Source: an uncultured Sphingomonadaceae bacterium (lineage in GTDB: Bacteria; Pseudomonadota; Alphaproteobacteria; Sphingomonadales; Sphingomonadaceae). Taken from it: DNA of 64,000 nucleotides. Under the pieces are notes generated by a model that was not told where the DNA came from, made no database searches, and worked only from the letters and a program-made list of their open reading frames with translations. The position numbers were made by a program, and so were the translations under genes. Below are positions 1,122-7,096 of the stretch, one piece after another. Numbering within the stretch: the stretch's first letter is position 1; every line of letters starts with the position of its first letter. The stretch covers positions 868,001-932,000 of the forward strand of contig CANLQE010000001.1 of NCBI GenBank assembly GCA_947493215.1, read 5' to 3'.

Positions 1122-1763
1122 TTACCAGCGGATAAGATGTGGTACGACAATCCGGCCGACAACGGCGCTGACCAATACCGGCAGAGTGAACCACAATCCG
1201 ATATAGTAAATGTCGTTAAACGGGCAGAAGATGTTGTAAGCGGCCGCACCCAAAGCACCGGATGCGATGCCGACGAGCCAGCCCGCGCGTTCCGGAGAGG
1301 TCGGCGCGCCTTGCCGCAGCCATGTGGTCAGGCCGCTGCCAATGACGAGCGCTGACATCATGCTAACGGTTAGGCAGCGCAGGCCTTCGGAGGGGCGCAA
1401 AGCTTCTACCGGGGGCATATTGATGGCACTCATGATCGCAGCTGTTAGCGGGAACAGGGATGCTGTGACCAGCGCCCAAATCCATCCGCGGTTGAGATTG
1501 CCAACACCGGGCCGAGCCATATTGGCGGCAGCCAAAGCCGTTGCAACGCCGAGCATCAACAACACGCCGCTGCGCAAAAAGAACATCTGATGTGCCATGC
1601 CCATCGCCAGATCCCCACGCACGCCCAGAAAGAAGGCCACGCTGGAAGAGACGGCGAGCATCAGGATCGCCGTGACCGCCATACCGCCAGAAGGCTTCAG
1701 GGTTTGGACCGGGGCGAGATCTTCGACCAGATCATCAATCAGGCTGTTTGCAACATTACTCAT
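1122..1763 (-). CDS. nrsF: DUF1109 / NrsF family anti-sigma membrane protein
   Basis: Six-TM-like protein (MSNVANSLIDDLVEDLAPVQ...) directly downstream of an ECF sigma gene with a 1-nt gap; DUF1109 style. Confidence 0.82.
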   Translation of the reverse strand: MSNVANSLIDDLVEDLAPVQTLKPSGGMAVTAILMLAVSSSVAFFLGVRGDLAMGMAHQMFFLRSGVLLMLGVATALAAANMARPGVGNLNRGWIWALVTASLFPLTAAIMSAINMPPVEALRPSEGLRCLTVSMMSALVIGSGLTTWLRQGAPTSPERAGWLVGIASGALGAAAYNIFCPFNDIYYIGLWFTLPVLVSAVVGRIVVPHLIRW

Positions 1764-1764
1764 T

Positions 1765-2289
1765 CTATTCACTCTCAATAAGGGCGCTCATTTTTTTGAG
1801 CCCCCGATGGATATTAACTTTCACCAGTGATTCCGACTGGCCGGTTTTTGCCGCGGCTTCGGCAATGCTTAGCCCTTCTATTTTTACCATGGCGATAACA
1901 CCGGCCTGCTTTTCCGGGATCATCCCCAGCAGGCGTTCCAAACTCACCTTGGCGGTCACGTCCTCGTCTTGCGGATCAGCGACTAGTTCTTCGTTCAACT
2001 CGCCATGTTCGTGGCGATAGATTTTGCGCAGACCATCAATCCAGCGATAGCGACCGATGGCTGCCAGCCAAGGCAGAAACGCCTTGGTCGGATCATAGCT
2101 GGCACGTTTGCGGTGCAGCGAGATCAGCGTTTCCTGCACCAGATCATCGACTTCGGCCGGATTGATCTTGCGCGCATAATAACGCCGCAGCCATTTTTCG
2201 CACTCGGTCAACAAGCTGGTATAGCATTGCTTGTCACCGCCTTGCGCCTTGACCATTAAATGGCGCAATGTTTCCTCGTTGGCGATCAT
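1765..2289 (-). CDS. sigF: RNA polymerase ECF sigma factor, SigF-like
   Basis: Sigma-70 region 2 (DLVQETLISLHRKRASYDPTKAFLPWLAAIGRYRWID) and region 4 (SIAEAAAKTGQSESLVKVNIHRGLKKM). Confidence 0.85.
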   Translation of the reverse strand: MIANEETLRHLMVKAQGGDKQCYTSLLTECEKWLRRYYARKINPAEVDDLVQETLISLHRKRASYDPTKAFLPWLAAIGRYRWIDGLRKIYRHEHGELNEELVADPQDEDVTAKVSLERLLGMIPEKQAGVIAMVKIEGLSIAEAAAKTGQSESLVKVNIHRGLKKMSALIESE

Positions 2290-2312: not shown

Positions 2313-2753
2313 TTAGCCCAGTTTCCCGCCGATCAATTTGTCGAGGGAGAACAGACCGCCGCCACGGGTAATCAGGACCGCTGCTAGCGCTACCCAGATA
2401 ATATGTACTGACCACCATGCTTCGGGGTAGACGAAAAACTGAATGACCAGGGTCATAACCAGCAGTCCAGCTGCGCCAAACCGGGTTGCGAGGCCCAATA
2501 CCAGCAGGATCGGGAAAAAATGTTCGGCATAGGTTGCGATCAATCCGGTAATTTCGGGAAAGGGCATGCCATATTCGTCGCGGAACAGATCGACCGTGAT
2601 GTCTTTCATGGTCAGGAAGCTGCCATCTTCGACCTTTGTGCGCGCTGAGCGCCAGAAAATCCCAGCGAGTGCTACGCGGGCGAAAAGTAGGGCTATAGCT
2701 TCAGGAAAAGCGCCGCTTACCATGTTAATTGCTTTTTTAATCAGACTCATCAT
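2313..2753 (-). CDS. DoxX family membrane protein
   Basis: DoxX-like: LLFARVALAGIFWRSARTKVEDG...GLIATYAEHFFPILLVLGLATRFGAAGLLVMTLVIQFFVYP. Confidence 0.85.
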   Translation of the reverse strand: MMSLIKKAINMVSGAFPEAIALLFARVALAGIFWRSARTKVEDGSFLTMKDITVDLFRDEYGMPFPEITGLIATYAEHFFPILLVLGLATRFGAAGLLVMTLVIQFFVYPEAWWSVHIIWVALAAVLITRGGGLFSLDKLIGGKLG

Positions 2754-2759
2754 TTTCGG

Positions 2760-3500
2760 TCACCCCGTTATTTTTATCATTACGCCGCTTTGGATCAGCT
2801 TGATTAAGCGCTCCATTGCAGTGTCTTCACCACCCAGTTCGATGGCAGCTGCCAAAAGGTTACCCATTGTTGAAACATTTGCAATTTTTTCCGCAATATC
2901 ATGCTCTACTTGTGTGAGCGGGTGGAACAACACCGCGGCTTCTGGGCGCGCAACCATCAACGCATCCGGCGTTTCATCACCTAATTCGGACAACTCAGGC
3001 GAAAGCACGCCTGTCAGGTTGATTAGCCGCATTGCCGGATGGGCAGTGATAGCGAGGCCCAGCAAACCTTCTTCATCCAGTGTCGCAATATCGTTAAGGG
3101 CAAGCGGCGTGGCCTCTGCGCTATGATAGCTTTTAATCCACGCCCATTCGATGCGAGCCAGATCGACTTCGGTCTCCCCGCTGCCGCGTTTGGTCAGAAA
3201 ATCGGCGAAGTCCGCTGCGATACTATTCATGTCGCACATCAGGATATGGTCTTGCTCGATATAGTCGCGGGAAATGGCATGAAAGGCTTCATGCCCCATA
3301 TGTTCGCGCAATTTGGGATAGGCGTTTTCCAGCGCCACGAGCCGCGCATGGGATACGGTGTTGGCATGGGCTTTGAGGCCCAAAAGCGCGCGATCGGCGT
3401 CTTCCGCAAAAAGCTCATCGGGAAAATGGGCTGGGCCTTTTTGCAGGCAGGCGATAAAGCGCGATTGGCCGTCAGCTAGCGAGGGCATGTTGATCCTCAT
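2760..3500 (-). CDS. bufC: BufC / HvfC-like DUF2063 protein (putative MNIO partner)
   Basis: N-terminal DUF2063-like region (ENAYPKLREHMGHEAFHAISRDYIEQ); overlaps the 3' end of bufB. Confidence 0.82.
   Translation of the reverse strand: MRINMPSLADGQSRFIACLQKGPAHFPDELFAEDADRALLGLKAHANTVSHARLVALENAYPKLREHMGHEAFHAISRDYIEQDHILMCDMNSIAADFADFLTKRGSGETEVDLARIEWAWIKSYHSAEATPLALNDIATLDEEGLLGLAITAHPAMRLINLTGVLSPELSELGDETPDALMVARPEAAVLFHPLTQVEHDIAEKIANVSTMGNLLAAAIELGGEDTAMERLIKLIQSGVMIKITG
2838..2863 (-). promoter_or_regulatory. Candidate internal SigF-type promoter (GTAACC-N16-CGAA)
   Basis: Plus strand TTCG(2838-2841)-N16-GGTTAC(2858-2863); on minus strand reads GTAACC-N16-CGAA, 85-110 nt upstream of the doxX start. 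Confidence 0.45.
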
Positions 3501-4401
3501 TTAAAACATGGCTGCCGAGCACCGTTTCAACTTTGGCGACCTCGGCCATAAGCACATCATATGCGGGAATATCGGTGTCCCATTCGATCAACGTGGGTTT
3601 GGGTCCAGCGCGTTTGATAAAGCGCTCATAAAGCCGCCAGGTCACATCACTGACAATCGAGCCATGGTCGTCGATTAGCAACGCGCCGCTCTCATGGTTT
3701 TCCCGGGCATGGCCGGCCAGATGCATTTCGCCGACAATATCCGGGTCAATTGCTTCGATATAGGCTTCCATATCCAGTCCGACATTGGTGGCGGTAACCT
3801 CGACATTGTTGATATCAAACAACAGCCCGCAGCCGGATTGTTTGCAGAGCGCGGAAATGAAATCGGTCTCGCTCATTTCATCGTCACGGAAGCTGAGATA
3901 GCGCGATGGGTTTTCGATCAGCATGGGGCGTTTCAGCCGGTCCTGCACTTTGCCAATTTGCGTCGAGAAATGATCCAGCGCTTCCCCGGTATAAGGGATG
4001 GGGAGTAGATCGGGATAGCGATCATGGGCATTGCCGCTCCAGCTTAAATGGTCAGAAACCATAGCTGGCTGGTAGCGTTCACAGAGATCTGCGATTTTCT
4101 CGAGATCATATTGATTCAAGCCTTCGGCCGAACCAAGCGACAATCCGACGCTGTGAAAGCTCAGGGGATAGTCTCCGGCGATGGCGGTCAACCAACGATG
4201 TAGTGGACCGCCATCACCGAAGTAATTCTGTGGATGCACCTCTACCCATCCGGGATTCTTTGATCCGTCTTCTTCAGACAATACATCATTATAATGTACT
4301 GACTTCAGACCTATGCCACCTGATGGAGGGAGGGAGTGAGACATAGGCGTGTTCATGACGGACAGACCAAAATTTGAGGTTTGAGTATTAGTAACATCCA
4401 C
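3472..4401 (-). CDS. bufB: MNIO (DUF692) multinuclear iron oxidase, bufferin-modifying enzyme BufB
   Basis: DUF692 motifs: GWVEVHPQNYFGDGG, SFHSVGLSLGS, VSDHLSW, LIENPSRYLSF, LLFDINNVEVTATNVG, GEMHLAGH, LIEWDTDIP. Start could be 4356 (MNTPMSHSLPPSGGIGLK). Confidence 0.9.
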   Translation of the reverse strand: MDVTNTQTSNFGLSVMNTPMSHSLPPSGGIGLKSVHYNDVLSEEDGSKNPGWVEVHPQNYFGDGGPLHRWLTAIAGDYPLSFHSVGLSLGSAEGLNQYDLEKIADLCERYQPAMVSDHLSWSGNAHDRYPDLLPIPYTGEALDHFSTQIGKVQDRLKRPMLIENPSRYLSFRDDEMSETDFISALCKQSGCGLLFDINNVEVTATNVGLDMEAYIEAIDPDIVGEMHLAGHARENHESGALLIDDHGSIVSDVTWRLYERFIKRAGPKPTLIEWDTDIPAYDVLMAEVAKVETVLGSHVLNEDQHALAS

Positions 4402-4458: not shown

Positions 4459-4755
4459 TTAGCCCTTGCGCGGAACTGGCTTTGTATTGCCTTTTTTCGC
4501 GGTCAGTGAACCACCGGCTTTAACGCAAGCGCCTTTGGCCGTGTATTTCCAGGCATTGCCCTGATAATCTGCGGTAGATGTACCGGCACAGCTTGTACCT
4601 GGGCCTGCGGCGCAATCATTCTTGCCTTTCAGCGCGATGCCGAAACATTTTTCCTTGGCACCAGCGGCAACGGCCGTGGTTGGTGAAATTGCGATGGTTG
4701 CAGCGGCAGCGAGCGCAGCGGCAGCGGCGGTTGCTTTGATGATGGAGTTAGACAT
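4459..4755 (-). CDS. bufA1: Bufferin-type precursor BufA1 (DUF2282)
   Basis: 98-aa protein with Ala-rich signal-like N-terminus and four Cys in DUF2282 spacing: [50 protein letters not shown]; next to a MNIO gene. Confidence 0.87.
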
Positions 4756-4818
4756 TTGGATTTCCTCTCTTGGGAGTTGGGAATGACAATGAACATGTTT
4801 GGCACGTTCAAGATGAGT

Positions 4819-4844
4819 TTCGCTGCGGCTGGCCGGTTGGTTAC
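4819..4844 (-). promoter_or_regulatory. Candidate SigF-type promoter of the buf operon (GTAACC-N16-CGAA)
   Basis: Plus strand TTCG(4819-4822)-N16-GGTTAC(4839-4844); minus strand GTAACC-aaccggccagccgcag-CGAA, 64-89 nt upstream of bufA1. Confidence 0.72.
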
Positions 4845-4985
4845 AATTCTTTTTCGAATATGATAAAAAAGTGGCGCGCCACTTTTCAGAAATGGCGTTT
4901 TTCTGGTCGATACAGCGCGAAAAAAAATCCCAAAAATTTTCTGCAAAGCCTTGACGCTGAGCGCAGATCGCCCATATGGGCTGCG

Positions 4986-5012
4986 TTAGCACTCGACTCG
5001 TAGGAGTGCTAA
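4986..5012 (+). promoter_or_regulatory. CIRCE element (HrcA operator) upstream of groESL
   Basis: Perfect TTAGCACTC-gactcgtag-GAGTGCTAA. Confidence 0.96.
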
Positions 5013-5096
5013 TCCTCCATTGAATATATTCTTGATGGCTGAAGCTAAAGGAGCGCAGCCCGCAGGAAAGATAATTTGGACAAGAAAGGGAAACAT

Positions 5097-5387
5097 ATGA
5101 AATTTCGTCCACTACATGATCGTGTACTGGTTCGCCGCATAGAGGCGGATGCGAAAACCGCTGGCGGCATTATCATTCCAGATAGCGCGCAGGAAAAGCC
5201 ATCCGAAGGTAAAGTTGTTGCTGTTGGCGGCGGCTTGAAAGACGACAATGGCAAAACCACTGCTCTCGACGTCAAAAAAGGCGACAGCATCCTGTTCGGC
5301 AAATGGTCCGGCACGGAAGTCACCGTTGAAGGCGAAGACCTGATCATCATGAAAGAAAGCGATATTCTCGGCATTATCGAGAAGTAA
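5097..5387 (+). CDS. groES: Co-chaperonin GroES
   Basis: [44 protein letters not shown]. Confidence 0.98.
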
Positions 5388-5422
5388 TTCCGCTTTTTCA
5401 TATACTCATTTAATTCTCATAA

Positions 5423-7096
<1,674 letters not shown>

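Follow-up and report, generated by a model that had tools for sequence, protein, structure and literature searches.

Results

The buf-sigF-nrsF operon and its divergent neighbor

The window (the whole 64,000-nt stretch of DNA analyzed) carries on its minus strand six genes in the operon order bufA1-bufB-bufC-bufD-sigF-nrsF. These encode a DUF2282 bufferin precursor (bufA1, 4459..4755), an MNIO bufferin maturase above the cut-off of the NCBIfam model MNIO_BufB (bufB, 3472..4356, with start codon candidates at 4401, 4356 and 4344), a DUF2063/HvfC-like partner (bufC, 2760..3500), a DoxX family protein (bufD, 2313..2753), an ECF sigma factor (sigF, 1765..2289) and an anti-sigma factor with both conserved cysteines (nrsF, 1122..1763). 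The bufB and bufC genes overlap, and the remaining spacings are 6 nt between bufC and bufD, 23 nt between bufD and sigF, and 1 nt between sigF and nrsF. The DUF2282 precursor, MNIO maturase and DUF2063 partner identify a bufferin 1 cluster, and matches above cut-off to PF04542/PF08281 (SigF) and PF06532 (NrsF) identify a sigma/anti-sigma pair. As the NrsF protein misses the cut-off of the NCBIfam NrsF equivalog (81.7 bits vs 300), it counts by these models as a divergent protein of the Pfam family rather than an equivalog. Together, the genes of the cluster are those of Caulobacter SigF/NrsF and CC3254-3257.

On the plus strand, groES (5098-5387) and groEL (5438-7096) are transcribed away from this operon behind a perfect CIRCE element (HrcA site) at 4986-5012, the back-to-back arrangement described in the first-pass annotation. 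Divergent pairing of groESL with the buf-sigF operon recurs across many genera (window 4459-7096; loci L066-L114), and at loci where buf is absent groESL still adjoins sigF-nrsF (L100, L103, L104, L106).

A SigF-type site ahead of bufA1

The minus strand from 4844 to 4819 reads GTAACC AACCGGCCAGCCGCAG CGAA. This site, P1, is predicted from its motif match and conservation to be the SigF-type promoter of the buf operon, with a -35 box GTAACC at 4839-4844, a spacer of 16 nt and a -10 box CGAA at 4819-4822. Both boxes and the spacing are those of the SigF-binding sequence in Caulobacter, GTAACC-N16-CGAA (Kohler et al., PMC3511200), so that the exact match claimed in the first-pass annotation agrees with the published motif. 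The claimed distance of 64-89 nt to the bufA1 start codon is likewise correct, the A of the ATG being at 4755 with a good Shine-Dalgarno sequence, AGAGGAAA, ahead of it. Transcription from P1 would be predicted to start at about 4810-4815 on the minus strand.

The window contains two exact matches to GTAACC-N16-CGAA, compared to 0.05 in shuffled sequences. Over the whole genome there are 23 exact matches vs 18 for the reversed pattern used as a control; this is no enrichment, so we dropped the genome-wide count as evidence and regard the bare string as weak evidence. The case for P1 is strong through conservation and position rather than through the string alone.

Loci for comparison came from searches for SigF homologues, first among 61 relatives and later across 251 genomes of the family. 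We retrieved 100 loci and added 80 from named genomes (Parasphingorhabdus, Sphingorhabdus, Parasphingopyxis, Blastomonas, Erythrobacter, Porphyrobacter and others). The motif, with its 16-nt spacer and at most one mismatch, is present in 96 of 98 distinct operon heads starting with bufA, and is exact in 71; these loci are related and the counts are therefore not independent. Applied to the same 98 heads, 200 permuted motifs gave a mean of 0.06 and a maximum of 4. A search upstream of related buf operons had been proposed in the first-pass annotation, and this is its outcome. Among 28 aligned congeneric upstream regions, in which the spacer has widely diverged, full invariance is confined mainly to GTAAC and CGAA. 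P1 is a further case of the already known Caulobacter-type SigF promoter.

Other candidate signals in the same intergenic region were rejected. A perfect 20-bp palindrome upstream of P1, AAAAGTGGCGCGCCACTTTT (4867-4886), was considered as a regulator site and is not conserved, with a similar sequence in one close relative only. We also set aside the idea that SigF controls groESL on the opposite strand, as the intergenic region has no motif in that direction (allowing up to one mismatch) and groESL has its CIRCE element.

A second site within the bufC coding sequence

P2 (2838..2863, minus strand), the second of the window's two exact matches, falls within the coding sequence of bufC, with the bufD ATG 85 nt downstream; it is not mentioned in the first-pass annotation. 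Among 60 distinct bufC sequences from across the family with sigF downstream, P2 is exact in 57 and has one mismatch in the other three, always in a single reading frame, and its occurrences span at least 12 genera. All 17 bufC genes from other settings lack P2, even when one mismatch is allowed (Fisher 2e-14, for sequences that are related and non-independent); ten of the 17 belong to other alphaproteobacterial loci, most with the Caulobacter arrangement.

The conservation of P2 extends to synonymous positions. The 29 congeneric sequences all share its letters, GGT AAC CTT ... NNC GAA. An invariant residue that more than one codon could encode occupies 75 bufC columns, yet only six of these have an invariant codon, and GGT, AAC, CTT and GAA account for four of the six. 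Codon 1 of P2 is GGT, CGT, TGT or AGT (Gly, Arg, Cys or Ser), with GT constant. At codon 8, nine different codons encode eight amino acids, and each ends in the C of CGAA; that this codon is always NNC despite eight amino acids indicates selection on the DNA at P2. The DNA is therefore conserved beyond what the protein needs, and only where sigF lies downstream, and P2 probably serves bufD-sigF-nrsF as an intragenic SigF promoter, with a predicted transcription start at about 2829-2834 on the minus strand. The base before GTAACC is mostly G at P2 and T at 82% of head sites, a difference that suggests P2 may be the weaker promoter.

We found no report of an intragenic sigF promoter in the open-access literature, which does not in itself prove absence. 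P1 is a familiar type of promoter, and the putative one conserved within bufC, confined to loci where sigF follows, is a new variation on it.

Association of the motif with SigF across genomes

The motif also accompanies sigF genes that are not preceded by a buf gene, being exact at 39 of 73 such heads and within one mismatch at 52 of 73, where the misses include distant relatives of SigF. In those distant relatives (about 50% identity or less), the motif before sigF is often absent or present only as a variant. Divergent loci of the Caulobacter type have the motif before bufA and sometimes before sigF, often as GTAACG or GTAACA. In SigF-less genomes of other families of the order, we did not find the motif upstream of bufA. 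Within the family, the sole genome with the motif and no detected SigF (G079, locus L377) has a completeness of only 67%.

Counts of motif and control pattern were 246:231 in 20 genomes with SigF and 33:79 in 15 genomes without. Placement relative to genes also differs: an open reading frame starts within 130 nt of the match at 24 of 40 matches in SigF-containing genomes (drawn from three other SigF-containing genera, together with a handful of sites in a fourth genome) vs 2 of 20 in genomes lacking SigF (p=2.5e-4).

A wider predicted regulon

In the genome containing the window (G000, contigs C1-C4; loci L001-L010 and L166-L178), an open reading frame starts on the same strand within 130 nt downstream of 17 of the 23 exact matches, compared to none of the 18 control matches (p=7e-7). 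The figure of 17 is a lower bound, bufA1 and msrA (213 nt) being further cases outside the count of the 130-nt rule. T precedes GTAACC at 16 of 19 gene-upstream sites vs one of the four others. Built on exact matches only, the list of marked genes comprises glutathione reductase (gor), an AhpC/TSA protein, a DUF1223 protein, two DUF547 proteins, a LysR regulator, a radical SAM protein, a PNPOx-like protein, a protein resembling DegP-type proteases and secreted small proteins.

Some of these sites recur in other genomes. Both gor and the DUF1223 gene retain the site in a distant congener, and gor also in another genus. The gene msrA has the site in both congeners, the distant one of which also has it before an msrB-like gene (the MsrA and MsrB names were assigned from the sequences by eye). 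We predict from these sites a regulon for thiol and methionine repair under the motif, comprising gor, msrA, the peroxiredoxin and DUF1223, and infer that SigF, rather than another ECF factor, reads all of the marked genes. In Caulobacter, SigF controls methionine sulfoxide repair by MsrPQ (PMC8224329). We found no paper in the open-access literature describing a SigF regulon with glutathione reductase.

Elsewhere, a small cysteine-rich secreted protein (ACSCGARCCAAAAEGSAGCCAAEGGCC) is encoded directly behind GTAACC-N16-CGAA at locus L311 (genome G199), and could be another metal-binding peptide precursor. At locus L295 (genome G208), a gene with a start that may resemble an arsenite methyltransferase has the motif 37 nt ahead of it.

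Alternative explanations

If the match ahead of bufA1 had arisen by chance, the operon might instead be read from a sigma-70 promoter such as CTGAAA-18-TATCAT (4889-4860, minus strand). The near-equal numbers of matches to the motif and to its reversed control in this genome fit such a reading, as does the presence of a sigma-70-like site upstream of P1. We consider it highly improbable given that the motif with its fixed spacer is kept at nearly all of the operon heads, whereas the CTGAAA-18-TATCAT sequence is not conserved and sigma-70-like sites are fewer than in shuffled sequences. It is also improbable, though less so, that P1 is a genuine ECF promoter read by an ECF sigma factor other than the linked SigF. 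The marked gene set is larger than the Caulobacter regulon, and Caulobacter sigF is itself partly transcribed by an unidentified factor via the same region (PMC3511200). Against this, the motif tracks sigF when buf is absent, in relatives lacking SigF it is no longer placed ahead of genes, and Caulobacter bufA1 is solely SigF-dependent (PMC3511200).

For P2, the alternative is that the letters are kept only because the BufC protein requires Gly-Asn-Leu and Glu at these positions. The Asn and Glu are indeed invariant in these BufC proteins, and P2 occupies a single reading frame. We nevertheless judge this explanation unlikely: the first residue changes but GT does not, the eighth takes eight different amino acids with its codon always ending in C, P2 codons are fixed at synonymous positions where most other codons vary, and the 17 bufC genes without sigF downstream lack the site.

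Discussion

A proposed SigF circuit

We propose that P1 is the SigF-driven promoter of a six-gene operon and that P2 provides an extra start for bufD-sigF-nrsF, a model that we hold to be very probable on the basis of the sequences, conservation, SigF co-occurrence and DNA-level selection at P2 computed in this analysis. Conservation of the operon heads and co-occurrence with SigF support the prediction in the first-pass annotation that the linked sigma factor transcribes the buf operon, a reading that was incomplete in that it lacked P2 and the wider gene set.

Caulobacter work supplies the action of SigF and NrsF in this model, along with Cu, Cr and Cd as inducers. NrsF would keep SigF at the membrane until metal stress acts on NrsF, at its two conserved cysteines, and frees SigF. 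Free SigF would then read GTAACC/CGAA at P1, giving the bufferin genes and more SigF and NrsF, and P2 would add a start for bufD-sigF-nrsF, so that the sigma/anti-sigma pair would, like its Caulobacter counterpart, have a SigF-type promoter of its own; the RNA starts at both sites are inferred. In Caulobacter, where NrsF holds SigF, the NrsF cysteines C131 and C181 matter, and both are invariant in our 15-sequence NrsF alignment. Disruption of sigF makes Caulobacter copper-sensitive, and copper induces the SigF regulon there under every condition tested (PMC8224329). These results and the invariant cysteines lead us to expect the same circuit here. Transcription of CC3254, the Caulobacter orthologue of bufA1, starts at -61 from the start codon (PMC3511200). 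Counting against the model are the weak autoregulation of Caulobacter sigF (PMC3511200) and a terminator-like hairpin just past P1 (4810-4790), which is within the expectation from shuffled sequences.

We think it likely that the SigF circuit of Sphingomonadaceae gains two layers: a promoter in bufC codons that would re-induce sigF-nrsF apart from the bufferin genes and constrain the BufC sequence, and a regulon that reaches beyond metal-chelating bufferins into thiol and methionine repair (glutathione reductase, MsrA/MsrB, peroxiredoxin and DUF1223). This work extends the copper and heavy-metal SigF-NrsF-bufferin circuit beyond Caulobacter to the Sphingomonadaceae, backs the promoter by direct sequence evidence and lists predicted SigF targets. 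P2 offers a clean natural example of a regulatory signal overlapping a protein code, in which amino acids vary while promoter letters stay fixed, and makes testable the design question of why sigF-nrsF would retain its own SigF-type promoter inside a SigF-driven operon.

Comparison with known systems

The closest parallel is the Caulobacter CC3254-CC3257 (bufA1BCD) promoter (PMC3511200), which shares the -35 and -10 words, the 16-nt spacing, a distance of about 60 nt to the start codon, four target genes in identical order, and linkage to SigF and NrsF. In Caulobacter, however, sigF-nrsF is a separate unit with its own promoter, whereas here it closes the buf operon, with the probable counterpart of that promoter in bufC. 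The Caulobacter regulon also comprises about four transcription units, whereas here the motif marks many more genes. A promoter of an ECF sigma gene embedded in the coding sequence of the preceding gene has a parallel in Caulobacter sigV, whose promoter lies in cabp (PMC13171946), although the sigma factor, motif and genes are unrelated and cabp and sigV are reported to be independent monocistronic units. Clusters of the Buf1 type (PMC12452194) share the DUF2282 precursor, MNIO, DUF2063 and DoxX proteins, sigma factor and NrsF; that survey does not treat promoters (a term search of its text did not find the word).
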